Shown in pieces: positions 8,049 through 24,219 of a stretch of 64,000 bases of DNA (positions within the stretch are counted from its first letter, which is position 1; each line of letters begins with the position of its first letter). Origin of the DNA: Jiella pacifica. GTDB lineage: Bacteria; Pseudomonadota; Alphaproteobacteria; Rhizobiales; Rhizobiaceae. Location of the stretch: NCBI RefSeq assembly GCF_010500815.1, contig NZ_JAAAMG010000007.1:1-64000 (forward strand), read 5' to 3'. A model generated the notes under the pieces. That model was not told where the DNA came from, searched no databases, and saw only the letters and a program-made list of their open reading frames with translations. Position numbers and translations under genes: made by a program.

Positions 8049-8675
8049 GTGACCAAGCGCGAGAAAAGAATGATCCGCGCCAGGATCGCCGCGCCTGACC
8101 TGACGGCGGCAGCCGCCGCCTTTTCGGCCGCCGTCTCGCGCGGCGACTTCGCCGCCGCCGCAACGGCCCTCGACCCCCTTCTCGCGGCGGATCCGGGCAA
8201 CGCCGTGCTGCATTACAACCGCGCCCTCGCCCTGCGGCTGTCCGGCCGGCCGAAGGACGGGCTGGCGGCGGCAATCCATGCCCGCACGCTCGATCCGGCA
8301 AATGCCAAGGCGCTGTTCGAGGTCTCTGCCTGCGGCCTCGAAGCCGGTGAAGCGCAGACATCCCTGGATGCCGGCACCGCCTATCTCGAGAAGCACCCAG
8401 GCGACGGCGACGCGGCGTTGAACGCGGCGCGCGCGGCGCTGCTCCTCGATCGTCCGATGGAGGCTCTCGCCTTTCTGGATCAGGTCGCGGAGAGGGAGCT
8501 TGCGGATGAGCACCGCCTCTGCCGGGGCGAGGCGCTGCGCGATCTCGGCCGGTTCGACGCGGCGGAAGCGGCCTGGGCCGAGCTTCCCGCTGCCCTCGGC
8601 GGGATCGTCCTCTCCCTGCGCTCCAAGGGGGCGCGGGGAAGGCTGGCGCTCACTCCTGGGCGGTCTTCGCCCTGA
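8049..8675 (+). CDS. Tetratricopeptide (TPR)-repeat protein
   Basis: A protein of about 208 residues with alanine-rich helical repeats. A TPR unit with the pattern NAVLHYNRALALRLSGRPKDG is followed by HARTLDPANAKALFEVSACG, then by GDGDAALNAARAALLLDRP and LCRGEALRDLGRFDAAEAA. There is no signal peptide, so it is probably a cytoplasmic scaffold; the partner is unknown. It starts at GTG 8049; ATG at 8070 is an alternative. Its last 26 nt overlap the end of the convergent gene at 8650, so one of the two 3' ends may be longer than in vivo. Confidence 0.65.
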   Translation: MTKREKRMIRARIAAPDLTAAAAAFSAAVSRGDFAAAATALDPLLAADPGNAVLHYNRALALRLSGRPKDGLAAAIHARTLDPANAKALFEVSACGLEAGEAQTSLDAGTAYLEKHPGDGDAALNAARAALLLDRPMEALAFLDQVAERELADEHRLCRGEALRDLGRFDAAEAAWAELPAALGGIVLSLRSKGARGRLALTPGRSSP

Positions 8676-9354
8676 AGCGCTTGCGATAGACCCCGGGATC
8701 GGCGTCGAGCGCGTCCTGCAATTCCAGGCTCTCGGCGAGTTCCGCCGCGTCCATCTCGCGGCATGAGATCGCCAGCGCCGTCCGGCGGACGAGCACGCCT
8801 TGCGCCACCGGCGTTCCGGCCGCAAGCACGCCTGCGAACGCCGGATCGACCCACAGCGCCGGAAAATGCACGAAGCCGCCGGCAAAGTCGTCGACCAGTC
8901 CGGTCAGCGTGCGGAACGGCAGGTCGAAGCGGTTGTGCGGATGGGAAAACAGCATCGACCAGCCCTCCGGCAGCCGCATCGTCCAGCCATTGGTGAACTT
9001 GACGGCGAAGCGATCGGGATCGACGCCGGGAAAGCCGGTCAACTGCTCGGGCAGATGCACGCCGACCGGCGAGCGCGTCAGCCGCGCCAGAGGATGGGCT
9101 GGCAGGCCGCTGTCCCATTCGAAGACGCCGTCCGTCACCTTCAGATCGGCGATCAGCGGGAAGACGATCCCCGCCCCCATCGCGTCGACGAAGGGCGGGC
9201 ACTGCTTGACGGTGCGCACCGCGCCGCCGCCGAGAAGCTCCGAGACGGCGCTTTTCGGCATCGTCTTCAGCCAGTCCGGCAAGGCGCCCATGGCGGGCTT
9301 GGGCTCGGGGAGCCTGCCCTTCCAGCCGGGCAGGCAGCGAAATTCGATGGTCAT
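8650..9354 (-). CDS. Hypothetical protein of about 234 residues (MTIEFRCLPG...)
   Basis: The function is not recognised. The protein starts MTIEFRCLPGWKGRLPEPKP and contains DWLKTMPKS, CPPFVDAMGAGIVFPL, a lysine-free beta-rich middle with WSMLFSHPHNRFDLPF, and a C-terminal helix ending YRKRFRAKTAQE. It has no signal peptide or transmembrane segment. The arrangement resembles DUF6065-type proteins in my memory, but that is not checked. ATG at 9354 was chosen over an upstream in-frame codon at 9390 because the conserved-looking sequence starts there. It is convergent with the TPR gene. Confidence 0.6.
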   Translation of the reverse strand: MTIEFRCLPGWKGRLPEPKPAMGALPDWLKTMPKSAVSELLGGGAVRTVKQCPPFVDAMGAGIVFPLIADLKVTDGVFEWDSGLPAHPLARLTRSPVGVHLPEQLTGFPGVDPDRFAVKFTNGWTMRLPEGWSMLFSHPHNRFDLPFRTLTGLVDDFAGGFVHFPALWVDPAFAGVLAAGTPVAQGVLVRRTALAISCREMDAAELAESLELQDALDADPGVYRKRFRAKTAQE

Positions 9355-9436: not shown

Positions 9437-10315
9437 TCAGGCGTCGGCGCGGTTCTGCCTTTCCGCCCGGACCCGTCCGCTCGCCCAGACGAGCGCGGCG
9501 ATCACCGTGACGACGATGAAGATCACGCCGATGGCGTTGATCATCGGCGACAGGCCGAAGCGCATGCGGCTGGCGATCTCGGTGACCAGCGTATAGTCCG
9601 GCCCGATGGCGAAGAAGGTCGTCGGAAAATTCTCGATCGACTGGAGGAAGGCGAGAACCGAGGCCATGCCGATGGTCGGGGCCAGAAACGGCAGGGTCAC
9701 GCGCCGGAAGGTGAAGAAGGGCGTCGCGCCGAGATCGGCCGCCGCCTCGTCGAGGCTGCGGTCCTGCCGGGCGAGACGGGCCATGAACATCAACAGGCAG
9801 TAGGAGGCGATGAAGGCCGTCTGCGCCATCATCGCGGTGAACAGTCCCGCATCGACGCCGAAGGCGTCGCGCCAGAACATCATCGTCGTCACGCCGAGAA
9901 CGATGCCCGGAATCATGATCGGCGCGACCAGGATGGTGTAGAGGATGCCGTTCGCCCGGCTTTCGAGCCGGGTGAGAAGCAGCGCGCCGGCAAGGCCGAG
10001 CGGGATGGCGATGGCGATGACGCCGCAGGCGATCAGGAGCGAGTTGAACAGCCCCGTCATCATCCGCGCATCCTCGAAGATCGCGGCGAACCACTTCAGC
10101 GTGAAGCCCTGCCAGATGGTGATCGAGGGCGAGGGATAGGCGTTGAAGGCGGCGGCGACCATGATCGCGATCGGGGCGAAGAGGACGAAGAAGAACAGGC
10201 CGAGATAGACCCTCAGCAGCGTGTCGCCGATGCCGCGGCCATAGCCGCGCTCGGCCGGGACGGAGGAAGCCGCGGACCGATCCATCGCGGCGGGCCTTCC
10301 GATCGTCGTGCTCAT
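9437..10315 (-). CDS. ABC transporter permease, polyamine/2-AEP type (PotC-like)
   Basis: An inner-membrane permease of 292 residues with six predicted transmembrane segments and the MetI-type cytoplasmic EAA loop, seen as LDEAAADLGATPFFTFRRVTLP. It pairs with the upstream permease (4-nt ATGA overlap), the ATPase at 11577 and the binding protein at 13801. Sequence class alone suggests spermidine/putrescine-like substrates. The PHO-box-like control in front of the operon and the adjacent phn genes suggest a phosphorus compound such as a phosphonate or phosphodiester. The substrate is therefore open. Confidence 0.85.
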   Translation of the reverse strand: MSTTIGRPAAMDRSAASSVPAERGYGRGIGDTLLRVYLGLFFFVLFAPIAIMVAAAFNAYPSPSITIWQGFTLKWFAAIFEDARMMTGLFNSLLIACGVIAIAIPLGLAGALLLTRLESRANGILYTILVAPIMIPGIVLGVTTMMFWRDAFGVDAGLFTAMMAQTAFIASYCLLMFMARLARQDRSLDEAAADLGATPFFTFRRVTLPFLAPTIGMASVLAFLQSIENFPTTFFAIGPDYTLVTEIASRMRFGLSPMINAIGVIFIVVTVIAALVWASGRVRAERQNRADA

Positions 10316-11574
10316 TTGGCGATCTCCCGGATCGAGACGCGGAAGGCCGACAGCACCATCAGGATGAAGACGATGCAGCTGGCGAGCAGCATCAGCGAAT
10401 AGGCCGAGCCCTGGTTCCAGTCCCCGGTGTCGAAGAAGCGGCGATAGATGACCTGGCTGAACCAGTCCGGATGCAGCCCGCGGCCGACGAGCTCCGGCAC
10501 GGTGATGACGCCGGCCGACAGCATGAAGACGACGATCGCCCCCATGGCGATGCCGGGCTTGGCGTGAGGCAGAACGACCCGGTAATGCACCCGCCACACC
10601 GAAGCGCCAAGATCGCGCGCCGCCTCGACCTGGCTGCGGTCGAGGGTGCCGAGCGTGTTCATCAGCGGAAACATCATGAACAGGATGTAGGCGTAGGCCA
10701 TCACCAGAAAGACCGAATTGTTCGACGCCACCCATTGCGGCGGATCGCTGCCGACGACCCCCAAGGCCTGCAGCCCCGAGTTCAGGACGCCTTCGCGGGC
10801 CAGAATCATCACCCAGGCATAGACGCGCAGAAGCTCGTTGATCGAATAGGGGACGACGAGGAGGAGCAGGATCGCGCCCGCCCCGAGCGCGCCCTTCAGG
10901 TTCGAGGCGAAATAGGCGACCGGATAACAGACGACGAAGGCGATCACCGTCACCAAGGTGGCATAGAGGATCGTCTTGACGAAGATCTTCAGGTGCAGCG
11001 GCTCGATCGACGTGTAGTTCTGAAACGAATAGCGTGGCGCGTTGGCCGCGGCCTCGATCAGCACCGCCTGTTTCTCCTTGAGGGCTGCCATCTGCCCCTG
11101 CGCGGCGTCGCGCCTCGCCGTCAGCCCCTCGAGCTCCTCGGCGAGGCTTTCGGCGGTCTCTGCGCCGCCGGAGCCCCGACCGAAGGAGGGAAACAGCGGC
11201 GACGGAGGCGACGCCGCACCGCCGTCGGCCCGGTTGCCGGCGGAGGGGACGCTCATCCCCGGCACCATGAAGCCGCCTCCCCCTCCTCCGGAACTGGCGC
11301 CGGCGCCGGCAGGGTCCGACGAGGGCGGCTCGCTCAGTTCGGCCAGTTCCTTCTCACGCGCCACAAGATCGTAATCCAGCGTCGCGATGTCCCGCGACAG
11401 GCGGTTGATGGCGTTTTCGGTCTGGCTGAGTTCGTCGTTGCGGTCGACATGGACGAGGGAGCGCTCCCCCATGGTGAGCAGCGGGGCGGCGATCATGCCG
11501 CCGATCCAGACGGTGACGAGGAGGACGATCACCGTCGTCAGCGGCCCGCCATAGGTGCGAAGCAGCGCGCCCAC
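10312..11574 (-). CDS. ABC transporter permease (PotB-like) with a long periplasmic insertion
   Basis: A permease of 420 residues, about 120 longer than usual for PotB-type proteins. The first transmembrane segment (about 12-34) is followed by a roughly 140-residue periplasmic insertion. The insertion consists of a coiled coil (NDELSQTENAINRLSRDIAT, 46-80), a Gly/Ser/Pro-rich linker (about 81-140, with six consecutive glycines) and a second coiled coil (about 141-178). The other five membrane segments then follow, with the EAA loop VEAARDLGASVWRVHYRVVLP. The gene overlaps the next permease by 4 nt and follows the ATPase by 2 nt. The insertion may contact the binding protein; that role is inferred. 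Confidence 0.85.
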   Translation of the reverse strand: MGALLRTYGGPLTTVIVLLVTVWIGGMIAAPLLTMGERSLVHVDRNDELSQTENAINRLSRDIATLDYDLVAREKELAELSEPPSSDPAGAGASSGGGGGGFMVPGMSVPSAGNRADGGAASPPSPLFPSFGRGSGGAETAESLAEELEGLTARRDAAQGQMAALKEKQAVLIEAAANAPRYSFQNYTSIEPLHLKIFVKTILYATLVTVIAFVVCYPVAYFASNLKGALGAGAILLLLVVPYSINELLRVYAWVMILAREGVLNSGLQALGVVGSDPPQWVASNNSVFLVMAYAYILFMMFPLMNTLGTLDRSQVEAARDLGASVWRVHYRVVLPHAKPGIAMGAIVVFMLSAGVITVPELVGRGLHPDWFSQVIYRRFFDTGDWNQGSAYSLMLLASCIVFILMVLSAFRVSIREIAK

Positions 11575-11576
11575 GA

Positions 11577-12680
11577 TCAGTGCTCCACTGCCGCGGCGAC
11601 GGGTCTTTCCGCCACCGGCATGACGATCGCGTCTTCCGGCCGAAAGCCGATCACCGTCGGCCCCGTGGCGGGATGGACACTGCCGTCATTGGCGAGGTGC
11701 AGGACGATGCGGCGGCCAGTGGCGTCGCGGGTGACGAGGTTGAGATAGGGGCCTTCGAGTTCCCGGCCCTCGACGCGCGCGGTCAGGCGGTTGACGCAAG
11801 TGCCGTCGCCATCGACGAGGCCGGTGCGTTCTGGGCGAACCATCAGCACGGCCTGATCGCCGAGGACGACGTCCGGCGTGCGCCGGCCGGTGAAGGTGCC
11901 GCCCGGACCGTCGATCCTGGCGAACTCCTTTTCGACCGACGTCACCTTGCCGGTGAAAACGTTCTGCTCGCCGACGAAGCCCGCGACGAAGGCCGTCGCC
12001 GGAGCGTCGTAGACGGCGGTGGGGGTGCCGACCTGCTCGATCCGCCCCTTGTTCATCACCGAGATCCGGTCGGACATGGTGAGCGCTTCGCCCTGGTCGT
12101 GGGTGATGTAGATGAAGGTGACGCCGGTCCGCTTCTGCAGGGAGCGCAACTCGCTGCGCATGTGCTGCCGCAGCTTCAGATCGAGCGCGGAGAGCGGCTC
12201 GTCGAGGCAGAGGACGGCGGGTTCGACCGCCAGCGCCCTCGCCACGGCGACGCGCTGGCGCTGGCCGCCGGACAACTGGTCCGGCCTTTTGTCGGCATGG
12301 GCCTCCAGCGCGACGAGGGCCAGCAGTTCGTCGGCCCGGCCGTTACGCTCGCGCTTCGAAATGCCCCGCGCCTCGAGGCCGAAGGCGACGTTCTCGCGCA
12401 CGCTCATGCGGGGAAACAGCGCCAGGCTCTGGAAGATCATCGCCGTCGGCCGGCGATTGGCCGGCAGATGGTCGACAGCTTCACCTCCGATGAGGACATG
12501 GCCGGCGCTCGGCCGCTGGAACCCGGAGAGGATCCGCAACAGCGTGGTCTTGCCGCAGCCGGAGGGACCGAGGATCGAGTGGAACTCGCCGGCCGGAATC
12601 ACGAGATCGGTGGGGTGAACGGCGGTGAAGCCATCGAAGACCATGGTGACGCCGGCGAGCTCGACGCTCTTTCCATCCAT
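11577..12680 (-). CDS. ABC transporter ATP-binding protein (PotA-like)
   Basis: A 367-residue ATPase of the polyamine/iron/phosphonate importer class. It has Walker A GPSGCGKTT, the Q-loop in FQSLALFP, signature LSGGQRQRV, Walker B VLCLDEPLSALD and switch His in ITHDQGEAL. A C-terminal TOBE-type regulatory domain follows (about 240-350, with MVRPERTGLV and GFRPEDAIVMP). It energises the two permeases that follow it. It lies downstream of the acyltransferase gene (61-nt gap) in the same leftward operon. Confidence 0.9.
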   Translation of the reverse strand: MDGKSVELAGVTMVFDGFTAVHPTDLVIPAGEFHSILGPSGCGKTTLLRILSGFQRPSAGHVLIGGEAVDHLPANRRPTAMIFQSLALFPRMSVRENVAFGLEARGISKRERNGRADELLALVALEAHADKRPDQLSGGQRQRVAVARALAVEPAVLCLDEPLSALDLKLRQHMRSELRSLQKRTGVTFIYITHDQGEALTMSDRISVMNKGRIEQVGTPTAVYDAPATAFVAGFVGEQNVFTGKVTSVEKEFARIDGPGGTFTGRRTPDVVLGDQAVLMVRPERTGLVDGDGTCVNRLTARVEGRELEGPYLNLVTRDATGRRIVLHLANDGSVHPATGPTVIGFRPEDAIVMPVAERPVAAAVEH

Positions 12681-12741
12681 GCCGATAATTCCCTCGCCTT
12701 GCTTCGACGCGCCACGATCGGCCCGTCCTCCCCGGCGATCG

Positions 12742-13638
12742 TCAGATCGCCGGCATTGCCTCGCTCTCGCCCGCCTCGTCCTCGAAGATGCCGGCGAAGA
12801 AGTCCGGCTCGTCCGGCACGCCCCGTTCGCCGAGCGAGAACACCTGGCGACGCAGCCACTGTGTCAGCGCGACGGCATCCTGAAAACCGGCAATCACGCC
12901 GGGCTCGATCGGCTTGCCCACCGTCAGGGCGATCCGCCCGTCGATCATCCGCGCCGCTTCATGGAATAGCAGAGCATAGCGCAGCGATTGCGACATGTGG
13001 CTGGCGATCTGGAACAGCCGCGAATTCTGCCCCGGCAGGTGCACCGGCAGCACGGTCGCGCCGGAACGCATGATCAGCCGTGCCGACAGCGGACCCCAGT
13101 CGAGCTCGACGGCGCGGCGGGCGAGCGGCCGCGGCGTCGTCATCACCGCGCCGGCCGGAAACACCATCAGACAGCCGCCGCCCTTCAGATGGGCCAGCGC
13201 TTCGGCACGGGCCTTGATGTTGGCCCGTTCGGCCTCTCTCGTCCCGGAAAAGTCGATCGAAAACAGCTTCTCGGCCAATTCCGGCACACGGGCCAGCGCC
13301 GAATGGGCAATGATCTTCACGTCGCCGCGCAGCTGCCCGAGCAAGCAGCCGAGAGCGATGCCGTCCATCGCCCCATAGGGATGGTTGGCGACCACGGCGA
13401 GCGGCCCCGTCCGCGGGATCTGCGACGTGCCGTGGACGGCGAGCCGGATGTTCATGCGCGCGATCGCCTCGGCGAAGAAGTCGCCGCTCGCCGGATCCCC
13501 CAGGAACTCCCGGTAGAGCCTTTCGAGCCGGGCGCGGCCGCTCGCCGCCTCGAGTGCGAGGCACAAGGGCCGCATCAGGCGATGATCGATCGTCGCGGCA
13601 TAGGACATTCGAACAGCCGGTCGAGGCATCGTCCTCAT
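12742..13638 (-). CDS. Lysophospholipid acyltransferase-family protein (PlsC-like)
   Basis: About 298 residues with the acyltransferase motif NHPYGAMDG (His-x5-Asp type active site) and the substrate-binding block FPAGAV. The spacing and NHPxGxxDG wording resemble the hemolysin/OlsA-like branch rather than classic PlsC. It would acylate a lysolipid at the inner membrane, and the lipid is unknown. It is embedded between the binding-protein and ATPase genes of the ABC operon, so it is probably co-transcribed under the PHO-box-like array at 15005. Membrane-lipid remodelling during phosphate limitation is a plausible role but unproven. ATG 13638 was chosen; the frame opens at a TTG at 13680. Confidence 0.75.
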   Translation of the reverse strand: MRTMPRPAVRMSYAATIDHRLMRPLCLALEAASGRARLERLYREFLGDPASGDFFAEAIARMNIRLAVHGTSQIPRTGPLAVVANHPYGAMDGIALGCLLGQLRGDVKIIAHSALARVPELAEKLFSIDFSGTREAERANIKARAEALAHLKGGGCLMVFPAGAVMTTPRPLARRAVELDWGPLSARLIMRSGATVLPVHLPGQNSRLFQIASHMSQSLRYALLFHEAARMIDGRIALTVGKPIEPGVIAGFQDAVALTQWLRRQVFSLGERGVPDEPDFFAGIFEDEAGESEAMPAI

Positions 13639-13800
13639 CCGGTCTTCGTCGTGGTTCTGGATCGGTTTCAGGTCGTCCAAGTCTCGTCACCTTCCCGAAC
13701 GAGCCGCCCGAACGGCTCCGGATCGAGTGGCGGCGCGCGAGGCCATCAGGCTCGCACGCCGCGGATCTGCCATGGCCGTCTCGTCCGGCCGTCGCCCTTC

Positions 13801-14949
13801 TCAGGAGGCGTTGGTGATGCGCTCGGCATATTCCTGCTGGCCGGCCGCAAAGAACGGCGCGTCCGCCTGCCACCACCAGAGATTGGCGAGGTTTTCGGAG
13901 GTGTAGACTTCCTGGAACTGCTTGGCGTAGGTCTCGCCGGCATGCTGCGCGGCGCCGTCGACGCAGGAGTTGTAGCCGGTGTTGGCGCTCATGATGCCGG
14001 CCATGGCCGGGTCGAGCATGGCGTTGACGAAGGCATAGGCCTGCTCGAGGTTCTCGGCGCCGGAGGGGATCGCCATGGAATCCATCCAGGTCATGCCGCC
14101 CTCTTTCGGCATGCGATACTTCAGCTTTTCGTTGTCGCGGTTGAGCAGGAGGCCGGTCGAATCCCAGGTCTGACCGACGACGGCGCCCGACTGCTGGAAG
14201 GCGTTGAGCGCTTCCGTCGCATTGTTCCAGAACGCGCCGAAGTTCTGCTTGTGCTCGACGATGAAGGCCGCGATCTTGTCGAAGACGCGGCGCATGTCCT
14301 CTTCGCTCTTGTAGACGTCGAGCATCCGGTTCGACTGGAGCTCACCCATGGCGTCGAGATAGAGACCGGTGCCGATCAGGACGGACTTCTGCCGGAAGGC
14401 TGCCTTGTTCGCGGCGCGCGGGTCCCAGAGCATGCCGTAGGAGACGTCGGCATCGGTGGCATCGTCGAAGACGGACGCGTCGTAGGTGATCGCCTCGGTG
14501 CCCCAGTTGAAGGGGATGGCGACGCGCTTGCCGTTCTGCACCGCGCCCAGCTGGATGGAGTCGCGGTACATCGACTGGATGACGTTGCCGACCTTCGCCT
14601 TCTCCTCGTCGATCGGCTGCAGCAGGAACTGGTCGCCGTCCTGGTAGTTGGCGATGTTGGTCACCGACGGGAAGATGACGTCGAACCCCTTGCCGCCGGA
14701 GGCCTTGAGCTTCTGGGTCGCCTCGTCGTTCGAGCCGTAGGTCGACAGGTTGAGCTTGATGCCCGTGTCCTTCTCGAACTTCGAAATCATGTTCGGCTGG
14801 ACGTAGTCGCCCCAGGTGAAGACGTTGACGGTGCCCGAGCTCTGGCCGAAGCCCGGGCGCGTCAGCACGGCGGGAGCGGCAAGAAGCGTGGCTGAGGCCG
14901 CGCCGGCCTTCAAGATCGAGCGGCGCGAAATCGGAGTGACGAAGGTCAT
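13801..14949 (-). CDS. Periplasmic solute-binding protein, PotD-like, Tat-exported
   Basis: A 382-residue binding protein with a twin-arginine signal (SRRSILKAGAASATLLAAPAV). The mature part begins VNVFTWGDYVQPNM, which is the PotD/PotF-type opening. It contains GFDVIFPSVTN, PFNWGTEAITYD and GQTWDSTGLLLNRD. It supplies the substrate to the permeases encoded downstream. It is the first gene of the leftward operon, has a ribosome binding site (GGGAGC) before the ATG, and is divergent from the PHP gene. The family binds polyamines, iron or 2-aminoethylphosphonate. The PHO-type promoter favours a phosphorus-containing ligand. Confidence 0.87.
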   Translation of the reverse strand: MTFVTPISRRSILKAGAASATLLAAPAVLTRPGFGQSSGTVNVFTWGDYVQPNMISKFEKDTGIKLNLSTYGSNDEATQKLKASGGKGFDVIFPSVTNIANYQDGDQFLLQPIDEEKAKVGNVIQSMYRDSIQLGAVQNGKRVAIPFNWGTEAITYDASVFDDATDADVSYGMLWDPRAANKAAFRQKSVLIGTGLYLDAMGELQSNRMLDVYKSEEDMRRVFDKIAAFIVEHKQNFGAFWNNATEALNAFQQSGAVVGQTWDSTGLLLNRDNEKLKYRMPKEGGMTWMDSMAIPSGAENLEQAYAFVNAMLDPAMAGIMSANTGYNSCVDGAAQHAGETYAKQFQEVYTSENLANLWWWQADAPFFAAGQQEYAERITNAS

Positions 14950-15004
14950 GGAAAGCTCCCATCCGTTGAAATTGCGGATCTGCCGGCGCCTTGTAGACGT
15001 CTCG

Positions 15005-15046
15005 GATGACGTTTCGTTATCGTGCCGATGACGGCAAGGTGACGGT
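15005..15046 (-). promoter_or_regulatory. PHO-box-like array upstream of the PotD-like gene
   Basis: On the minus strand CGTCA occurs at 15044-15040, 15033-15029 and 15011-15007, spaced exactly 11 and 22 nt. PhoB boxes are direct 7-bp repeats (TGTCA-type core) with an 11-nt period, so this looks like four units with one degenerate. It lies 56-95 nt upstream of the start codon. The repeats are seen; PhoB binding is inferred. Confidence 0.55.
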
Positions 15047-15056
15047 GGAAAACACT

Positions 15057-15074
15057 GTGTCACAGCCCCGTCAT
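15057..15074 (+). promoter_or_regulatory. Candidate PHO box reading toward the PHP gene
   Basis: TGTCA (15058-15062) and CGTCA (15069-15073) are direct repeats with the 11-nt period of PHO boxes. The site overlaps the first possible ATG of the PHP gene (15073), which argues for a downstream start. It may serve the divergent promoter region as a whole. Confidence 0.4.
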
Positions 15075-15120
15075 GGTTCAAGCCGAAGAATTGCGGCCGA
15101 TGATCAACGGGGATGACGAC

Positions 15121-16032
15121 ATGGACGGGCGCGAAGTCTTTTCGGCCGGGGGACGGTTCCTTCGCGGCAACGTCCATACCCACTCGACGCGGTCCGACGG
15201 GGCGAGATCGCCCGGCGACGTCTGTGCCCACTATCGTGACATGGGCTACGACTTCCTGTGCCTGTCGGACCATTTCCTGGCGAAGTTCGACTTCCCGATC
15301 ACCGACACGAACGACTATCGCGGCGACGACTTCATGACGATCCTCGGCGCCGAGATCCACGCCCCGCAGAACAGCCAGGGCGAGATCTGGCACGTGCTGG
15401 CCTGCGGCCTGCCGGCCGATTTCGACCCGCCCTTCCCCGACGAGCGGATGGAAGCGCTGGCGGCGAGGGCCCGCGATGCCGGCGCCTTCGTCGGCATTGC
15501 CCATCCGCAATGGTCGTCGCTGACCATCGAGGACGGGCGGGCGCTGGCAGACGTCGCCCATGCGGTGGAGATCTGGAACACCGGCTGCGCGCTCGAAACC
15601 GGTCGCGGCGACGGCACGGCGCTGCTCGACCAGCTTCTCAACGAGGGCCACCGGCACCTGTCCGGCTACGCCACCGACGACGCGCATCTGAAGATACCCG
15701 ACTCGGGCGGCGGCTGGATGATGGTGAAAGCGGAGCGCAACGAGCCCCGGGCGCTTCTTTCGGCGATGAAGGCCGGGCTCTATTATTCCAGCCAGGGGCC
15801 GGCGATCGCGGCGATCCAGACGGTCGGGGACACCCTCACCATCCGCACCTCACCGGCCCGCATGATCTCCCTCGTCGGCCGGGGCAGCCGCGCCGAGACG
15901 GCCTTTTCCGACGACGGCTCCCTGACCTCCGCAGAGCTTTCCCTGCAGCGGTTTGTCGGCGACTGGTGCCGGCTGATCGTCAGCGACGGCGAAGGCCGGC
16001 ACGCCTGGTCGAACCCGATCTTCCCGGGCTGA
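15121..16032 (+). CDS. PHP-domain metallo-phosphoesterase (CehA/McbA-like)
   Basis: About 303 residues with PHP-domain metal ligands: VHTHSTRSDG (HxH near the N-terminus), LCLSDHFL (DH), an EIH in ILGAEIHAP, the His in GIAHPQW and the DDAH near the C-terminus. Such enzymes hydrolyse phosphoesters with a two- or three-metal site. The gene is divergent from a PHO-controlled ABC operon and 48 nt from the end of phnF, so it probably releases phosphate from an imported ester or acts late in phosphonate breakdown. A PHP enzyme from Eggerthella hydrolyses the cyclic ribosyl phosphate made by C-P lyase, and this window lacks phnP. ATG 15121 has the best ribosome binding site (GGGGATG); 15073 and 15100 are alternatives. 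Confidence 0.75.
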   Translation: MDGREVFSAGGRFLRGNVHTHSTRSDGARSPGDVCAHYRDMGYDFLCLSDHFLAKFDFPITDTNDYRGDDFMTILGAEIHAPQNSQGEIWHVLACGLPADFDPPFPDERMEALAARARDAGAFVGIAHPQWSSLTIEDGRALADVAHAVEIWNTGCALETGRGDGTALLDQLLNEGHRHLSGYATDDAHLKIPDSGGGWMMVKAERNEPRALLSAMKAGLYYSSQGPAIAAIQTVGDTLTIRTSPARMISLVGRGSRAETAFSDDGSLTSAELSLQRFVGDWCRLIVSDGEGRHAWSNPIFPG

Positions 16033-16080
16033 GCCTGTTCTTCCTTGGCTGCGGACGATCACGCAGCCTGCGGCGGCCGG

Positions 16081-16830
16081 TCAGTCCGCCGCGGGCCCGG
16101 CCGTGTGGTCGAAGAGGAGCTCGAACCGGCTGCCGAGGAAACGCGAGCGGGCGTATTGGACCGGTTCGCCCGTCGCCGCCGCGGTGAGGCTCGTCGTCTG
16201 GATCAGCGGCGTCGCCAACGGGCAATGCAGCCGTTCGGCGTCCCGCGCCTCGGCGGCGATCGCCGAGACCCGCGTCCAGAGCCGCCGGCAGCCGGCCAGG
16301 CCGAGAGCTTCAAGCGCCCGGGAGATCGAACCGAGTTCGGCGAAGGCGGCGACGATGCCCGGCACCCGCGCCTCCTCGAACCACAGCGTCGAGACGATCA
16401 CCGGCGCCCCGTCGGCGACGCGCAGGAGATCGAGGCGTGCCAGCGGCGCGGCGATGCCGCAACCGAGCAGGCCGGCGATCTCGGTCGACGCGGGCTCCCT
16501 CGTGGCCCCGACCATCGATCCGCCCGGCTCGCGGGAGGCGGCGCCGATATTTTCCGAAAAGCGGCTGCGCGGCCCAACGGGATAGGCGATGCGCCCCGGG
16601 CGCGGCGCAACGAAGGTGCCGCGGCCCCGCGCGGCCGTGAGCAACCCTTCTTCGCCGAGCGCGGCGATCGCCCGGCGCACGGTATGGCGGTTGACCGCGA
16701 AGCGCTCGGCCAGCCGCATCTCGCTCGGCAGCGCGTCGACAAGACGCCCCTCGGCGATGTCGGCGCGCAAGCTGTCGGCGATCTGCCGCCAGCGCGCGAT
16801 GCCCGCGCTCTCGTGGGTCGTCACCTGCAT
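16081..16830 (-). CDS. phnF: Phosphonate-metabolism GntR/HutC-type regulator PhnF
   Basis: A 249-residue regulator with an N-terminal winged helix-turn-helix (ALPSEMRLAERFAVNRHTVR, then LGEEGLLTAARGRGTFV) and a C-terminal UTRA ligand-binding domain (RLDLLRVADGAPVIV, QTTSLTAAATGEPVQY, RFLGSRFELLF). It is divergent from phnG and convergent with the PHP gene. Its likely operator is the inverted repeat TTGTCTA-N6-TAGACAA at 16942-16961. PhnF proteins are typically repressors of phn genes released by a pathway ligand; the ligand here is not known. Confidence 0.9.
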   Translation of the reverse strand: MQVTTHESAGIARWRQIADSLRADIAEGRLVDALPSEMRLAERFAVNRHTVRRAIAALGEEGLLTAARGRGTFVAPRPGRIAYPVGPRSRFSENIGAASREPGGSMVGATREPASTEIAGLLGCGIAAPLARLDLLRVADGAPVIVSTLWFEEARVPGIVAAFAELGSISRALEALGLAGCRRLWTRVSAIAAEARDAERLHCPLATPLIQTTSLTAAATGEPVQYARSRFLGSRFELLFDHTAGPAAD

Positions 16831-16894
16831 TCCCTCCGCTCGCCGCTTGCTGAGCCGCCGTCGCCGCGCGGCTCCCCTCGAATGACCGAGGCAC

Positions 16895-16912
16895 CCGTCA
16901 TTTCCATGTCAC
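16895..16912 (+). promoter_or_regulatory. PHO box upstream of phnG
   Basis: CCGTCATTTCCATGTCAC fits the 18-bp PHO consensus (CTGTCAT, 4-nt spacer, CTGTCAC) at 12 of 18 positions, with the two GTCA cores exactly 11 nt apart. It lies 76 nt before the phnG start. It implies PhoB activation under phosphate limitation. Confidence 0.7.
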
Positions 16913-16941
16913 GAAAATCATGCTAGATGGGTCTTATATAG

Positions 16942-16961
16942 TTGTCTACACAAATAGACAA
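16942..16961. promoter_or_regulatory. Candidate PhnF operator
   Basis: TTGTCTA, six bases and TAGACAA form a perfect 7-bp inverted repeat between the PHO box and the phnG start. GntR/HutC regulators bind such short palindromes, and phnF is divergently encoded next to it. AT-rich TATATAG just before it could be the -10 of the phn promoter. Confidence 0.65.
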
Positions 16962-16987
16962 TTAAATGAACGACGGATGGCAGCGAC

Positions 16988-17461
16988 ATGTCGGAAGCTT
17001 CGCGCAACTCCACTCCAGATCCCCAGGCAGCCCGCCGCCGCGCTGTTTCGGCCTTTGCGCAGGCGGATGCCGGCTTTCTCGATGCGGCGTGGCAAAGACT
17101 CGGCGCGGGCCGAAGGGTCGGCGCGTTGCGCGGCCCCGAAAGCGGCCTCGTGATGGTGCGCGGCCGGGCGGGCGGCGGCGGCGCGCCGTTCAATCTCGGC
17201 GAGGCAAGCGTGACGCGGGCGAGCGTCACCCTCGACGACGGCGCCGTCGGCCACGCGATGGTGCTCGGCCGGGACGGGACTCGCGCCCACTTTGCCGCCG
17301 TCTTCGACGCACTCTGGCAAGACGAGACGATGCGGGAAACCGTCGAGCGGGAGATCGTCGCCGTGATCGAGGCCGCGCTGGCGGAGACCGACGCGAAGCG
17401 ACGTTCCGAGACCGAGGCAACGAAGGTCGACTTCTTCACCATGATGCGCGGAGAAGACTGA
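16988..17461 (+). CDS. phnG: C-P lyase subunit PhnG
   Basis: A 157-residue subunit of the carbon-phosphorus lyase core complex (PhnG2H2I2J2), which transfers the phosphonate to ATP. Recognisable family stretches are FNLGEASVTRASV and GRDGTRAHFAAVFDALWQD. It is the first gene of the rightward phn operon, directly downstream of the PHO box and PhnF-type operator. Its stop (TGA) overlaps the phnH start by 1 nt. The length is usual for the family (about 150). Confidence 0.92.
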   Translation: MSEASRNSTPDPQAARRRAVSAFAQADAGFLDAAWQRLGAGRRVGALRGPESGLVMVRGRAGGGGAPFNLGEASVTRASVTLDDGAVGHAMVLGRDGTRAHFAAVFDALWQDETMRETVEREIVAVIEAALAETDAKRRSETEATKVDFFTMMRGED

Positions 17462-18069
17462 TGGTCGGAACATCCACGCCTGACCTCTCCCGCCTTGCCG
17501 TCGCCGGTGGCTTCGCCGATCCGGTGTTCGACGCCCAGGCGGTGTTTTCGGCGATCCTCAAAGCCCTGTCGCGGCCCGGAACGATCCTCGACACCGGCGC
17601 GCGCGCCGCTCCACCAGCGCCGCTCTCGCCGGCCCAGGCTGCTGCTCTCCTCGCCCTCTGCGACGCCGATACGCCCGTTCACGTTCCAGCCGCGGGCGAA
17701 ACGCTGGGCGCCTGGCTCGGCTTCCAGACCGGCGCCCGGCTCAGCGAGGCGGCCGATGCACGGTTTGCGGTCGTCGGCCGGTTCGACGGCGCCTGCCTCA
17801 AAACCTTTCCGCTCGGCACCCTCAGCTTTCCCGACCGCTCGGCGACGCTGCTGGTCGAGGTCGCCTCCTTCGGATCGGGCGAGGCGTTGCGGCTGTCCGG
17901 CCCGGGGATATCCGGGGTGACGACCATTCGCGTCGACGGCCTCGGCGACGGTTTCGTCGCAGCCCGGCGGGCGAACCGCGCGCTGTTTCCCTGCGGTCTA
18001 GATCTCGTCCTGACCTGCGGGAGAGAGATCCTCGGCCTGCCACGCTCCACCATCGTCGAGGAGGCGTGA
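17461..18069 (+). CDS. phnH: C-P lyase subunit PhnH
   Basis: A 202-residue protein of the C-P lyase core, structurally a degenerate PLP-fold homologue needed for complex assembly. Family-typical features are GFADPVFDAQAVFSAILKAL near the N-terminus, LSRPGTI, and the C-terminal NRALFPCGLDLVLTCG followed by LPRSTIVEEA. The start overlaps the phnG stop (TGATG), and 1 nt separates its stop from the phnI ATG, which indicates translational coupling. Confidence 0.93.
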   Translation: MVGTSTPDLSRLAVAGGFADPVFDAQAVFSAILKALSRPGTILDTGARAAPPAPLSPAQAAALLALCDADTPVHVPAAGETLGAWLGFQTGARLSEAADARFAVVGRFDGACLKTFPLGTLSFPDRSATLLVEVASFGSGEALRLSGPGISGVTTIRVDGLGDGFVAARRANRALFPCGLDLVLTCGREILGLPRSTIVEEA

Positions 18070-18070
18070 G

Positions 18071-19210
18071 ATGTATGTCGCGGTGAAGGGTGGCGAAGCC
18101 GCCATCGCCAATGCCCACCGGCTGCTTGCCGACCGGCGGCGCGGCGACCGATCCGTTCCGGCGCTGACGCTCGAGCAGATCGCCGGCCAGCTTGCGCTGG
18201 CAGTCGACCGGGTCATGGCGGAAGGCTCGCTCTACGATCCCGAACTCGCCGCCATGGCGGTCCGCCAGTCGCGCGGCGACCTGATCGAGGCGATCTTCCT
18301 GATCCGCGCCTATCGCACGACCCTCCCCCGCTTCGCCGCCTCCTCGCCGATCGATACCGGCAGGATGCTGATCGAGCGGCGGATTTCGGCGACCTACAAG
18401 GACCTGCCAGGCGGCCAGTTGCTCGGCCCGACCTTCGACTACACCCATCGGCTGATCGAGCCGGACATGGCCGGGGACGGCCTGGTCGCGGAGCCGGTCC
18501 GGCGCGATCCGGGCGAAGCCGGTCCGGCGCCCCGGGTGATGGACATTCTTGGCGACGAAGCGCTGATCGAGGGCGACGGCGCCGATGACGGCGTCGAACC
18601 GACCGATCTCACCCGCTCGCCGCTGGCCTTCCCGGCCCCGCGCGATCTTCGGCTCCAGGCGCTTGCCCGCGGCGACGAAGGCTTCCTGCTCGGCCTCGGC
18701 TATTCCACCCAGCGCGGCTTCGGCCGCACCCACCCCTTCGTCGGCGAAATCCGCATCGGCGAGGTCGAGGTCGAGGTCGATCTGCCGGAATTCGGTTTTC
18801 CCGTTGTGATCGGCCGGGTGCGCGTCACCGAATGCCAGATGGTCTCGCAATTTTTCGGGTCGAAATCACAGCCGCCGCAGTTCACCCGCGGCTACGGCCT
18901 GGTCTTCGGGCAGATGGAGCGCAAGGCGATGGCGATGAGCCTGGTCGACCGGGCCCTGCGCGCCGACGAGTTCGACGAGGAGCGCCGGGCGCCGGCACAG
19001 GACGAGGAATTCGTCCTCGCTCATTGTGACAACGTCCAGGCGACCGGCTTCGTCGAGCACCTGAAGCTGCCGCACTACGTCGACTTCCAGGCGGAACTCG
19101 GCCTGTTGCGGACTATGCAGCGCGAACACGTCGCAAGGTCGACCGATGGAACCTCGCCATGCGGTGCCGGCCAGCCCGTAGGCGAAGGTGGCGAGGACGT
19201 AGACGAATGA
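18071..19210 (+). CDS. phnI: C-P lyase subunit PhnI
   Basis: A 379-residue subunit with nucleosidase activity that couples ATP to the phosphonate to give the triphosphoribosyl phosphonate. Family motifs: MYVAVKGGEAAIANAH at the start, DLIEAIFLIRAYRTTLPR, QLLGPTFDYTHRL, GYSTQRGFGRTHPFVGEIR and LPHYVDFQAELGLLR near the C-terminus. The last about 27 residues (after MQREHVARS) are rich in Gly and Glu and look unconserved. The antisense small ORF at 19225 begins beyond its stop. Confidence 0.94.
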   Translation: MYVAVKGGEAAIANAHRLLADRRRGDRSVPALTLEQIAGQLALAVDRVMAEGSLYDPELAAMAVRQSRGDLIEAIFLIRAYRTTLPRFAASSPIDTGRMLIERRISATYKDLPGGQLLGPTFDYTHRLIEPDMAGDGLVAEPVRRDPGEAGPAPRVMDILGDEALIEGDGADDGVEPTDLTRSPLAFPAPRDLRLQALARGDEGFLLGLGYSTQRGFGRTHPFVGEIRIGEVEVEVDLPEFGFPVVIGRVRVTECQMVSQFFGSKSQPPQFTRGYGLVFGQMERKAMAMSLVDRALRADEFDEERRAPAQDEEFVLAHCDNVQATGFVEHLKLPHYVDFQAELGLLRTMQREHVARSTDGTSPCGAGQPVGEGGEDVDE

Positions 19211-19224
19211 GCCAGCCGTCGTGC

Positions 19225-19395
19225 TCACTCGGGCCTGCCGGCGTCGCCCTCTCCTTCGTCCTTCGGCACACGCGGGCGCCCCGATATGCCGCGCCCGAAC
19301 TCGCCGGTAACCGGATCGCGATAAATCAGGAAAAACCAGCCAAGGGCGAGACCGAAGAGAATTGCAAAGAGTTCGCCGAGCGCCATCCAGGCCAT
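19225..19395 (-). CDS. Possible small membrane protein (56 residues) antisense in the phn cluster
   Basis: The frame encodes MAWMALGELFAILFGLALGW, continues FFLIYRDPVTGEFGRG and ends KDEGEGDAGRPE. One transmembrane helix (about 5-25) is followed by a charged tail, a sensible small-protein layout. It fills most of the 241-nt gap between phnI and phnJ on the opposite strand. A weak ribosome binding site (AGGCGAG) precedes the ATG. No family is recognised. It could be a chance frame, since GC-rich DNA gives many. Confidence 0.4.
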   Translation of the reverse strand: MAWMALGELFAILFGLALGWFFLIYRDPVTGEFGRGISGRPRVPKDEGEGDAGRPE

Positions 19396-19451
19396 GCAAC
19401 TCGCCTTTCCCTGTCTTTACCGGCCCATCCAACACTTGGGGGATCAAGCCG

Positions 19452-20330
19452 ATGACTGCGCTGCCCAGCTACAACTTCGCCTATCTCGACGAGCAGACCA
19501 AGCGGATGATTCGTCGCGCCATCCTGAAGGCGGTGGCGATCCCCGGCTACCAGGTGCCGTTTGCCTCGCGCGAGATGCCGATGCCCTATGGCTGGGGCAC
19601 CGGCGGCGTGCAGGTGACGGCGGCGATCATCGGGCCGGACGACGTCCTGAAGGTCATCGACCAGGGTTCCGACGACACCACCAACGCCGTCTCGATCCGG
19701 GCCTTCTTCGCCCGCGTCGCCAATGTCGCGGTCACCACCAAGACCCGCGAGGCGACGATCATCCAGACCCGCCACCGCATTCCCGAAGCACCTTTGTCGG
19801 CAGGCCAGACGCTGGTCTACCAGGTGCCGATCCCCGAGCCCCTGCGCTTCCTCGAGCCGCGCGAGACCGAGACGCGAATCATGCATGCGCTGGAAGAATA
19901 CGGGCTGATGCACGTCAAGCTCTACGAAGACATCGCCCAGCATGGTCACATCGCCACCACCTACGCCTATCCGGTGAAGATCGAGGGGCGCTATGTGATG
20001 GACCCGTCGCCGATCCCGAAATTCGACAATCCGAAGATGGACGACTGCCCGGCGCTGCAGCTCTTCGGCGCCGGACGGGAGCAGCGGATCTACGCCATTC
20101 CGCCCTTCACCAAGGTCGCCAGCCTCGATTTCGAGGACCATCCCTTCAGCGTCCAGACATTCTCCCAGCCCTGCGGGCTCTGCGGCGCGACGGACGTCTA
20201 TCTGGACGAGATCGTCACCGACGACCGCGGCGGCCGGCTCTATGCCTGCTCCGATACGGACTATTGCGAGGAGCGGCGGGCGGCCGGGCATGTGGGGGCG
20301 GAAGACGTAGCTGGACTTGCTGCGCAATGA
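19452..20330 (+). CDS. phnJ: C-P lyase catalytic subunit PhnJ (radical SAM)
   Basis: A 292-residue radical-SAM enzyme that breaks the C-P bond of the ribosyl phosphonate, giving ribose cyclic phosphate and the hydrocarbon. The unusual C-terminal cluster motif is present: PCGLCGATDVYLDEIV (CxxC), then YACSDTDYCEERR, which supplies the third cluster Cys and the catalytic Cys of the Cx2Cx21Cx5C pattern. The N-terminus has FAYLDEQTKRMIRRAILKAV and EMPMPYGWGTGG. ATG 19452 was chosen because the frame upstream is non-conserved. A toxin-antitoxin pair follows on the opposite strand before phnK. Confidence 0.95.
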   Translation: MTALPSYNFAYLDEQTKRMIRRAILKAVAIPGYQVPFASREMPMPYGWGTGGVQVTAAIIGPDDVLKVIDQGSDDTTNAVSIRAFFARVANVAVTTKTREATIIQTRHRIPEAPLSAGQTLVYQVPIPEPLRFLEPRETETRIMHALEEYGLMHVKLYEDIAQHGHIATTYAYPVKIEGRYVMDPSPIPKFDNPKMDDCPALQLFGAGREQRIYAIPPFTKVASLDFEDHPFSVQTFSQPCGLCGATDVYLDEIVTDDRGGRLYACSDTDYCEERRAAGHVGAEDVAGLAAQ

Positions 20331-20382
20331 TCGGATCGGCAACGAGCCATGCGGCAAACGCCTTCGTGCGACCGCGGCCGGC

Positions 20383-20718
20383 TCACTCGGCCGCGTCGGC
20401 CGGCGCAGCCTCGCGCAGGATCGCGTTGATCCGCTCCTCCCAGTCGTCGCCCGCCTTGCGAAAACGTTCGATGACATCGCGGTCGATGCGCACAATGGCA
20501 CGCTCTTCGGGAACGAAATCGAAGGGCCGTTTGAGAGGCGCCAGACGGTCGCCATCCTCGATCGGCGGATTGTCTGGATCCTGGAGCGCATCCGCCGTGA
20601 TTGCAGCGTCTTCATCCGGCGTCATGGCTTCCCGTGCTCGCCGCGTCTTCTCTCGTACATGCGCCCAGTCTTCAGCGGTCGCTTCCGTCTTCACGAACAC
20701 GTTCCGTGTAACGATCAT
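20383..20718 (-). CDS. brnA: BrnA-family antitoxin
   Basis: A 111-residue antitoxin with a C-terminal ribbon-helix-helix domain of the BrnA (DUF4415) type: PFDFVPEERAIVRIDRDVIE followed by RFRKAGDDWEERINAILREA. BrnA neutralises BrnT and represses the operon. The N-terminus overlaps the end of brnT by 47 nt, so both are co-translated in the usual brnT-brnA order. The pair lies antisense to the phn operon, between phnJ and phnK. Codon use is less GC-biased than in the phn genes, consistent with transfer. Confidence 0.8.
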   Translation of the reverse strand: MIVTRNVFVKTEATAEDWAHVREKTRRAREAMTPDEDAAITADALQDPDNPPIEDGDRLAPLKRPFDFVPEERAIVRIDRDVIERFRKAGDDWEERINAILREAAPADAAE

Positions 20719-20983
20719 GGATGTCGACCTCTCTCTGATTGGCCTTACGAAACGAGATCACCCGAACTCGGCCACCACGTTCCGTATAGACGAGAACATG
20801 GTGGCGTTCGCCGATGATGCCAATGGCGATCTTGCGCACCTCGCCATAGTTGCGTCGCTCATCGCGGAAGATGGCAGCCGTGGCAAAATCGAACCGAAGG
20901 ACGTCAGCAAAGGGTGGACGCCCGGCCGCGACATTCGCTTCGGCTTTTGCCGGATCCCACTCGAAGCTGACCTCACCACTCAT
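20672..20983 (-). CDS. brnT: BrnT-family ribonuclease toxin
   Basis: A protein of about 103 residues with the BrnT signature: SFEWDPAKAEANVAAGRPPF at the start, then FDFATAAIFRDERRNYGE, VRKIAIGIIGERHHVLVYTE, and RVRVISFRKANQREVDIHD at the end. BrnT toxins are RelE-like mRNA-cleaving enzymes, and the SxRxAxxxE-type C-terminal block is present as SFRKANQREV. ATG 20983 (MSGEVSF) was chosen; a GTG at 21019 would add 12 atypical residues. Transcription runs opposite to phn, starting about 62 nt from phnK. Confidence 0.82.
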   Translation of the reverse strand: MSGEVSFEWDPAKAEANVAAGRPPFADVLRFDFATAAIFRDERRNYGEVRKIAIGIIGERHHVLVYTERGGRVRVISFRKANQREVDIHDRYTERVREDGSDR

Positions 20984-21045
20984 GACGCGACGATAGCTCA
21001 GGTTGTATTCTGGTGCCACACGTCCGACCGAGGGCCTGCAAACCC

Positions 21046-21822
21046 ATGACCGACCTTCCCCTCCTCTCCGCCCGATCCCTCACCCGCCTCTACGGCAGCC
21101 ACGTCGGCTGCGAGGACGTCTCCTTCGACCTTTATACCGGTGAGATCCTCGCCATCGTCGGCGAATCCGGCTCGGGCAAGTCGACCCTCCTCGAATGCCT
21201 CTCCTGCCGCATGCCGCTGACGAGCGGTGCGGTCTCCTACCGGATGCGCGACGGCGAAATGCGCGGCCTCGCCACCCTGACCGAGGCCGAACGGCGCTTC
21301 CTGATGCGCACCGACTGGGGATTCGTCCACCAGAACCCGGCCGACGGCCTCAGGATGCGCGTGTCGGCCGGCGCCAATATCGGCGAGCGGATGATGGCCG
21401 TCGGCAACCGCCACTATGGCCATATCCGCGAAACGGCGAATGACTGGCTCTCCCGCGTCGAGATCCCAGGCGCACGCATCGACGACCGGCCGACGGCCTT
21501 TTCCGGCGGCATGCGTCAGCGCCTGCAGATCGCCCGCAATCTCGTCACCGCGCCGCGCCTCGTCTTCATGGACGAGCCGACCGGCGGCCTCGACGTCTCG
21601 GTTCAGGCGCGTCTCCTCGACCTCCTCCGCGGCCTCGTCGGCGAGATGGGACTGTCGGCGATCGTCGTCACCCACGATCTGGCCGTCGCGCGGCTCTTGT
21701 CCCACCGCATCATGGTGATGAAACAGGGCCACGTCATCGAACACGGCCTCACCGACCGGGTGCTCGACGACCCGCAACATGCCTATACCCAGCTTCTCGT
21801 CGCCTCGATCCTGGAGGTCTGA
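21046..21822 (+). CDS. phnK: C-P lyase ABC-type ATPase PhnK
   Basis: A 258-residue ATPase of the dipeptide-importer-like class that binds the C-P lyase core rather than a membrane permease. Walker [10 protein letters not shown], signature [12 protein letters not shown], Walker [18 protein letters not shown] and the H-loop [12 protein letters not shown] are all present. ATG 21046 ([12 protein letters not shown]) was chosen. It is separated from phnJ by the brnTA insertion, so its expression probably depends on read-through from phnJ or a local promoter. Confidence 0.93.
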
Positions 21823-21825
21823 GCC

Positions 21826-22554
21826 ATGCGCGACCACTCACCAAAGACGCGGCTCGTCCTCGAAGACGTCGCCAAGAGCTTCACCAACCATCTGCGCGGC
21901 GGCATCCACCTGCCGGTCGTCCGCAACGTGTCCTTCGCGGTCGATGCCGGCGAAGTGGTCGTCCTCGGCGGACCGTCCGGGGTGGGCAAGTCGTCGATCC
22001 TCAGGATGATCTATGGCAATTACGGCGTCGAAGCCGGCCATATCCTCATGCGTGGGGCGGCGGGCGATCCCTTCGCCGACCTCGCGACGGCGAGCCCGCG
22101 CGAGGTCGGCGCGCTGCGGCGAACCGTCGTCGGCTATGTCAGCCAGTTCCTCAGGGCGATCCCGCGTGTCTCGGCCCTCGACGTCGTCGCCGAGCCGCTG
22201 TTCGCCCGCGGCGTCGAACCTGCCACCGCTCGGGAAAGCGCAGCGGTTCTCCTCGAACGTCTGAACCTGCCCGCCGCCCTCTACGACCTTCCCCCGGCGA
22301 CCTTTTCCGGCGGCGAGAAGCAGAGGGTCAACATCGCCCGCGGCTTCCTGACCGATCACCCGATCCTCCTCCTCGACGAGCCGACCGCCTCGCTGGACAA
22401 CGCCAATCGCGACGTCGTCTGCGAGCTGATCGCGGAGAAGCGCCAGCGGGGCGTGGCGATCCTCGGCATCTTCCACGACGAGGAAGTTCGCGGGCGCGTC
22501 GCCAGCCGCATCGTCGACGTCTCCGGATTTTCCGCGCGAGAAAAGGCCGCCTGA
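21826..22554 (+). CDS. phnL: C-P lyase ABC-type ATPase PhnL
   Basis: A 242-residue ABC ATPase required for C-P lyase function, with Walker [11 protein letters not shown], signature [14 protein letters not shown], Walker [18 protein letters not shown] and the H-loop IFHDEEVR. No permease partner is expected; PhnK and PhnL act on the C-P lyase core. It starts 3 nt after phnK and overlaps the downstream acetyltransferase by 1 nt (TGATG). Confidence 0.94.
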
Positions 22555-23168: not shown

Positions 23169-23215
23169 GCCGCTTTGATCACTATCGATTCAATCGTCAT
23201 CGAAGCATCGTAAAG

Positions 23216-23233: not shown

Positions 23234-23289
23234 GGAAGGTCTCTAAAGCTCTGGTGACGCGACAGCGCGACACCCATCAGGAGCAACCG

Positions 23290-24159: not shown

Positions 24160-24219
24160 CAACCGTCTGGACGCCCGGCCGACGATCCCCGAGACCACCA
24201 ACAGGGAAACCAAGAACCC

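Follow-up and report, generated by a model that had tools for sequence, protein, structure and literature searches.

In Jiella pacifica, the first 64,000 nucleotides of contig NZ_JAAAMG010000007.1 (assembly GCF_010500815.1; this whole stretch is called the window) carry a PotABCD-type ABC importer operon, a divergent gene for a PHP-domain metallohydrolase and an adjacent set of C-P lyase (phn) genes. We propose, with a probability of about 0.55, that the module takes up a phosphonate monoester or phosphodiester under PHO control and that the PHP enzyme cuts the ester in the cytoplasm before C-P lyase acts. PhoB would control both arms from the divergent spacer; a Tat-exported, PotD-fold solute-binding protein (SBP) would bind an anionic organophosphorus ester (phosphonate monoester or phosphodiester) and pass it to the PotABC-type permease; the PHP/CehA-type metallohydrolase, presumably cytoplasmic, would cut the P-O-C ester to yield a phosphonate (or phosphomonoester); and the adjacent C-P lyase would then free phosphate. 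The assignment of the module to organophosphorus use and the PHO regulon is very likely, ester cleavage by the PHP enzyme is favoured with more reserve, and a phosphonate monoester as the main substrate falls slightly short of an even chance. An earlier note on this DNA had described a transporter operon with an acyltransferase as its second gene, a divergent PHP gene and neighbouring phn genes, and the gene kinds, order and strands are as it claimed. It knew of no described system with this combination. Among the matches listed in searches of open-licence literature, no paper on the pairing of importer and hydrolase was seen, nor one that ties a PHP/CehA enzyme to the use of phosphonates or a phosphonate monoester hydrolase (PMH) to such an importer.

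The hydrolase that accompanies the importer provides the strongest pointer to the substrate. Among 199 genomes of the order, 12 were found to hold an orthologous importer when the SBP alone served as query (E ≤1e-85), and the hydrolase beside it is a PHP enzyme in two of these genomes and a PMH/PehA-like enzyme in five (PehA-like in three families). The PHP gene is divergent from the importer in J. pacifica, whereas in G118 it is the next gene downstream of permease 2 in the same orientation. The PehA-like gene is divergent in G013, G070 and G106; in G098 it is also divergent, but an MscS gene intervenes and phnX follows it; and it is located after permease 2 in G172, where a PHP gene is also present on another contig. 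On this count, 7 of the 12 genomes have PHP or PehA by the importer (6 of 11 without J. pacifica), versus 1 of 40 control regions (P value ~4e-5 and 2e-4, respectively), and so do four of the seven other families. As controls, two regions were chosen by coordinate in each of 20 genomes from the order, and the lone match among them (L216) is a PehA hit at 29% identity. Three more importer loci (L062, L063 and L089) were found via the PHP gene and so lie outside this count.

PMH/PehA enzymes belong to the alkaline-phosphatase superfamily, and their fold differs from that of PHP enzymes; the exchange of one for the other beside orthologous importers is an apparent non-homologous replacement. Because two unrelated hydrolases share one slot by one importer family, the substrate is suggested to be an imported ester. 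The PehA-like protein of L169 aligns with the solved phosphonate monoester hydrolases 2w8s (438 bits) and 2vqr (434 bits) and with 4uph, titled a sulfatase (662 bits), and the formylglycine motif C-x-P-x-R is kept in the PehA-like proteins of L169, L170, L190, L191 and L192. Characterised PMH/PEH enzymes are cited, in an excerpt of PMC5649143, as acting on phosphonate monoesters and phosphodiesters. The earlier note had the PHP enzyme release phosphate from the imported compound: a role in organophosphorus use is supported, but since PMH-like enzymes occupy the PHP place beside orthologous importers, phosphate release itself appears less likely than an ester cut that would free a phosphonate or phosphomonoester.

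The PHP protein of the window is by score a member of the CehA/McbA metallohydrolases (NF038032, 103 bits, cut-off 80), and its match to the Pfam PHP model (20.7) stays below the cut-off (26.4). Named CehA/McbA members are carbaryl hydrolases, whereas the subfamily of the window is tied to phosphonate genes instead. Nine residues (H35, H37, H67, E94, H107, H144, D202, D203 and H205) are invariant in PHP alignments of 22 and 26 sequences and would form a PHP-type metal site, with the roles of individual ligands assigned by analogy. The family occurs in 34 of the 199 genomes of the order and in 12 of 385 in a sample of the class. Besides Proteobacteria, its hosts include Streptomyces and a haloarchaeon; the scan of named genomes confirmed at least 495 stretches, of which 80 were kept.

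Importers of several kinds accompany the PHP gene: Pot-type in the window, L062, L063, L089 and L183; Dpp-type in, for example, L077, L079, L094, L122, L142, L143 and L178; Ugp-like, with or without a HAD hydrolase, in L101, L112, L113, L180, L201 and L202; and, in L144, one with a YnjB-like SBP (NF008633 best, 90.5 bits, cut-off 203). On a tree of 107 distinct PHP sequences, in which the L144 importer was entered as Pot-type, importer type requires 20 changes by parsimony (mean of 33 with shuffled labels) and phosphonate context 12; the pairings thus seem to have arisen more than once. In one locus (L178) the PHP gene, a Dpp-type importer and phnHIJKLM share one strand, and other arrangements include phnX-psrA-importer-PHP, phnA-psrA-importer-PHP and importer-PHP-phn_thr beside phnNM and LKJI. 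Many PHP genes lie outside any importer or phosphonate context, examples being those of the Aestuariivirga group and one carried by a Streptomyces plasmid. As further observations, a Rhizobium leguminosarum plasmid (L145) carries phnF-importer-PHP beside phosphonate biosynthesis genes (phosphoenolpyruvate mutase, cytidylyltransferase and an asparagine-synthase-like gene), and in L124 and L138 the gene right after PHP is PehA-like (32% identity, CGASR motif).

The association with phosphonate genes was counted in 69 PHP loci of at least 8 kb from named genomes, with identity floors for marker and importer calls and with marker queries drawn partly from four PHP loci (L142, L122, L145 and L084). 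A phosphonate marker was near the PHP gene in 12 of 69 loci versus 0 of 40 controls (P value=0.0035); leaving out L122, which had donated a query, gives 11 of 68 (P value=0.006). In L070, L093 and L122 the marker is a LysR gene alone, whose family score (204) is below the cut-off (341); with such LysR-only loci dropped, 9 of 69 remain (P value=0.025). An importer was near the PHP gene in 20 of 69 loci versus 1 of 40 controls. Among plasmid PHP loci, four of six have a marker (two of them donated queries). A further set of 22 loci, partly from the same organisms, yielded 6 with a marker (two via LysR alone); the sets were kept unpooled, as L195/L066 and L200/L080 are repeats. That PHP genes turn up time and again near phosphonate genes and importers supports the earlier suggestion that the module takes up an organophosphorus compound. 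More tentatively than for the module itself, and at somewhat less than an even chance, the PHP subfamily may be an unrecognised cytoplasmic phosphonate-ester (monoester or phosphodiester) hydrolase that serves several unrelated ABC importers and is exchangeable with PMH-like enzymes.

PHP and PhnJ lie within 25 kb of each other in 6 of the 19 genomes of the order with both (~1.2% expected per genome), at 4 kb in J. pacifica and at 9-21 kb in five genomes of one family, Afifella included; counted by family, this is 2 of 12 (P value=0.008). In the class sample their co-occurrence is weak (6 of 12 versus 59 of 373, P value=0.007; 5 of 11 without J. pacifica, P value=0.02). As an alternative reading, the PHP enzyme could be a PhnPP-like cyclic phosphate hydrolase that stands in for PhnP in the C-P lyase pathway, PhnPP having reportedly been identified as a PHP enzyme by Ghodge et al. 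in 2013; PhnPP is mentioned by name in PMC8774927. In favour of this, the PHP gene directly follows phnM in L084 and L130, and in J. pacifica the PhnP model reaches 28 bits, far from its cut-off of 272. However, E. coli-type PhnP (E 1e-20) was found in none of the 65 PhnJ-bearing alphaproteobacterial genomes tested (24 with PHP, 41 without); because PhnP is absent with and without PHP alike, its absence says nothing on PHP, and replacement of PhnP is left unsupported by this pattern. Moreover, only 19 of the 99 PhnJ genomes of the order have the PHP gene, which also occurs in phnX, psrA and phnA loci where the stretch shown contains none of the C-P lyase genes. A role in place of PhnP is therefore improbable.

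Sequence features of the importer speak to its ligand. It shares with the PotABCD and PotFGHI polyamine importers the kinds of genes and the sequence family of its SBP, ATPase and two permeases; the SBP aligns with PotD over its whole length, and solved PotD/PotF-type proteins are among its closest relatives. An ordinary polyamine importer that neighbours the phn genes by chance would fit these relationships, Pot systems being its closest named relatives. Yet it misses the cut-offs of the PotA, B, C, D and F models, and the DDAREV position of PotD reads RQKSVL in the SBP of the window. RQKS stands in place of acidic residues in 12 of 12 aligned importer orthologues (L172, L174 and L191 were left out of the alignment), while two SBP relatives at 39-42% have RGHS or RDHS there. 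The acidic polyamine-binding residues of PotD are D168 and E171. The tryptophans aligned with PotD W229 and W255 are retained in the window, as is the aspartate after W255. Judged from this distant alignment, by which the position in the pocket is placed, the ligand is probably not a polyamine, and RQKS would fit an anionic one; the earlier preference for an organophosphorus ligand over spermidine or putrescine is borne out to that extent. Together with the PHO boxes of the promoter and the pairing with an ester-hydrolase-like partner, this makes an ordinary polyamine importer the most improbable of the alternatives considered.

A further 2-aminoethylphosphonate (AEP) system, with the PHP enzyme in an unrelated role, would accord with the highest-scoring model for the ATPase, PhnT2 (342 bits), which exceeds PotA (340 bits, cut-off 482), and with phnX beside the PehA-bearing importer locus L169. 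Import of a phosphonate by an ABC system, as in AepXVW, AepSTU and PhnSTUV, is also what we propose for the window. However, the PhnT2 cut-off of 457.7 is not attained, nor are the equivalog cut-offs of PhnV (74 bits, cut-off 358.7) and PhnU (59 bits, cut-off 283), and free AEP requires no ester hydrolase, yet a PHP or PehA gene adjoins the importer in 7 of 12 genomes. In addition, aepXVW typically lies beside phnWX or phnWAY (an excerpt of PMC8316502). An AEP importer is accordingly quite unlikely. As to export of the SBP, its Pfam TAT match (19.6 bits) is below the cut-off (22.7).

Within the spacer between the SBP and PHP genes, CGTCA recurs on the minus strand (15007, 15029 and 15040; spacing of 22 and 11), and the plus strand has YGTCA twice, at 15058 and 15069, 11 nt apart. 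Among 3192 sampled 171-nt stretches of the window, five equal the spacer in the number of same-strand pairs at 11, 22 or 33 nt, and all five overlap the spacer itself; the CGTCA repeats reported earlier are thus present and their register is unique to the spacer within the window. Sites were scored against the PHO-box consensus CTGTCATNNNNCTGTCAT, and matches of at least 11/14 were compared with shuffles: seven were found in the window versus 2.05 expected, six of them within 15028-23233, including further PHO-like boxes at 16895 and 23216 by phn genes. By the same consensus, two TGTCAT-type repeats in an 11-nt register lie upstream at the spacer, as in members of the PHO regulon. In Aurantimonas (L062) and Jiella (L063) the repeats are kept while the flanking spacer has diverged, and the importer-strand boxes score 12/14 and 13/14, respectively, at unchanged distance from the SBP start. 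Box matches upstream of the SBP have P values≤0.01 in L170, L192 and L193 and of 0.045-0.11 in L169, L190, L191, L183, L089 and L174; none was found there in L171, L172 and L189. Conservation of the boxes in the two relatives supports PHO control as put forward in the earlier note, and the importer and PHP pair are probably under phosphate-starvation (PhoB) control. The plus-strand box runs into the ATG at 15073, and homologues begin to align near 15121; the ATG at 15121 is therefore the likely PHP start.

Several observations weigh against the import and cytoplasmic cleavage of a phosphonate ester. The importers of one family (G146, G173 and G195) have a divergent MBL-fold enzyme and two HAD enzymes instead, with phoR-pstS downstream; an MBL-fold gene lies two genes downstream of the importer in G077 (locus L193); and no nameable hydrolase was seen in the importer neighbourhood of G166 (locus L189). 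The PehA-like proteins of L169, L170, L190 and L192 score 552-569, below the equivalog cut-off of NF045661 (900). By the queries used, 57 of the 69 PHP loci have no phosphonate marker and 49 no importer, and PHP and PhnJ do not co-occur by genome above chance in the order (19 of 34 PHP genomes versus 80 of 165 others; P value=0.46). The pocket argument for the SBP depends on a distant alignment, and the predicted structures of the SBP and of c34, the final gene product of the operon, are poor (mean pLDDT of 38 and 50; 4-row alignments). We know of no substrate or activity for the PHP family of the window.

Some of these points would suit a phosphodiester with no C-P bond, such as a glycerophosphodiester or lipid head group, which the PHP enzyme would convert to a phosphomonoester for ordinary phosphatases to finish, the C-P lyase genes being adjacent through a shared PHO regulon. 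The MBL and HAD enzymes beside phoR-pstS are in line with it, as is the position of PHP after a Ugp-like importer and HAD hydrolase in L101, L113, L201 and L202 (in L113, however, the SBP reaches only 60 bits with the UgpB model, cut-off 411); acyltransferase homologues adjoin a Pot-type importer (L248) and a PehA-like enzyme (L249), and PMH enzymes cleave phosphodiesters too (PMC5649143, in excerpt). Against it stand the linkage of PHP to phnX, psrA, phnA and C-P lyase genes, by name phosphonate-serving, and the phnX gene of L169. It is considered unlikely, if less so than the other alternatives.

The embedded acyltransferase had been called a lysophospholipid acyltransferase. That it is an acyltransferase holds, but the name is too specific, because the nearest NCBIfam models, those of the aminolipid O-acyltransferases OlsF (119 bits, cut-off 620) and GlsA (74 bits, cut-off 260), are both far from their equivalog cut-offs. 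It is present in 3 of 15 importer loci (the window, L062 and L063, all Aurantimonadaceae); being absent from the other 12 (E 1e-8, 40% coverage), it does not appear to be a fixed part of the importer. Homologues (30-42%) occur in 55 of the 199 genomes, J. pacifica included. Of 58 other matches, 41 were examined with 14-20 kb around, and in two of these regions, from two other families, the homologue lies directly beside a related partner, pairings that neighbour clustering did not reveal. In L248 (5926-10206, minus strand) a homologue with an internal stop precedes a Pot-type ATPase (54%) and two permeases (31-32%) on the same strand, with no SBP found by the queries used; in L249 (7216-9891, minus strand) it directly precedes a PehA-like gene (59%; 534 bits, cut-off 900) on the same strand, followed by an aminotransferase-class-IV gene. 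Pairing of the acyltransferase with such an importer or PehA-like gene thus recurs, rarely. Furthermore, a distant Pot-type importer lies ~2 kb from a homologue on the opposite strand in L262 and L263, and phnMN and phnCDE lie 4-9 kb from one in L275. The J. pacifica genome has three further PF01553 proteins, one ~19 kb off on the same contig, and, as named by eye, OlsB-like and OlsA-like genes. The idea that the enzyme reworks membrane lipid within the module is weakly placed, given its absence from 12 of 15 loci against adjacency in 2 of 41 regions; a role in forming phosphorus-free aminolipid or in handling lipid-derived products is possible and would fit the promoter.

Table 1. Features of the importer, PHP and phn gene region of the window.
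Feature	Position	Strand	Description
ABC permease 2 (PotC/PotI-like)	9437-10315	-	PF00528; PotC model 133 bits, cut-off 326
ABC permease 1 (PotB/PotH-like)	10312-11574	-	PF00528; PotB model 135 bits, cut-off 348
ABC ATPase gene	11577-12680	-	Top model PhnT2, below cut-off
Acyltransferase gene	12742-13680	-	PF01553 and PF19576; nearest models OlsF-N/GlsA; motif NHPYGAMD (HX5D)
SBP gene	13801-14949	-	PotD-fold solute-binding protein; Tat-type signal; RQKS replacing the acidic polyamine site
c34	8650-9354	-	Conserved protein; final gene of importer operon
PHO-box-like repeats for importer operon	15007-15045	-	Best match 15028-15045, 11/14
PHO-box-like repeat for PHP gene	15057-15074	+	11/14
PHP/CehA-type metallohydrolase	ORF 15073-16032, likely start 15121	+	Divergent from SBP gene; NF038032
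phnF regulator	16081-16830	-	TIGR02325 242 bits, cut-off 156.8
phnG, H, I, J, K, L, phn_thr (hexapeptide transferase), phnC, D, E, M, N	16966-27974	+	C-P lyase pathway

L062 (Aurantimonas) and L063 (Jiella) share the gene order of the window, acyltransferase and phn genes included. The nearest PHP homologues among the named matches listed are from Aurantimonas (85%) and Jiella (78%), which would place the genome in Aurantimonadaceae. Both permease genes fall outside the interval 11577..16032 given in the earlier note. In the phn set, phnJ, phn_thr, phnC, D, E, M and N were assigned by search, and phnG, H, I, K and L by position and by cross-hits in annotated or related loci. Permease 1 has a long Gly/Ser- and Glu-rich insert near its N-terminus; the permease 1 called in L169 and L170 is shorter (~345 residues). 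Beyond the phn genes, at 28139-33388 on the plus strand, an imelysin-like gene (NF047655, 112 bits, below the cut-off of 850) is followed by three genes with no NCBIfam match at E 1e-25.

The c34 protein has no Pfam or NCBIfam match, and a search of the PDB gave E-values of 0.6 and worse. Its gene, which the earlier note had not mentioned, comes next after permease 2 or is separated from it by a single gene in 9 of the 15 importer loci. Homologues occur in 15 of the 199 genomes; of 11 places viewed widely, six have c34 with the importer and five without. In one family (L171, L172 and L174) an AHSA1-domain protein is encoded between permease 2 and c34, and phoR and pstS follow.

PMH enzymes are best known for promiscuous activity in vitro, and the proposed pathway, if true, would give them a natural physiological setting. 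In marine dissolved organic matter, alkylphosphonates are bound to polysaccharides through ester links, and for their release PMC5649143 only postulates enzymes, either alkaline-phosphatase-like or PEH. A PHO-boxed importer with a PHP or PMH-like partner offers concrete candidate genes for this release and, if true, would represent an import-then-cut route to phosphonates that are bound as esters in dissolved organic matter and in lipids.

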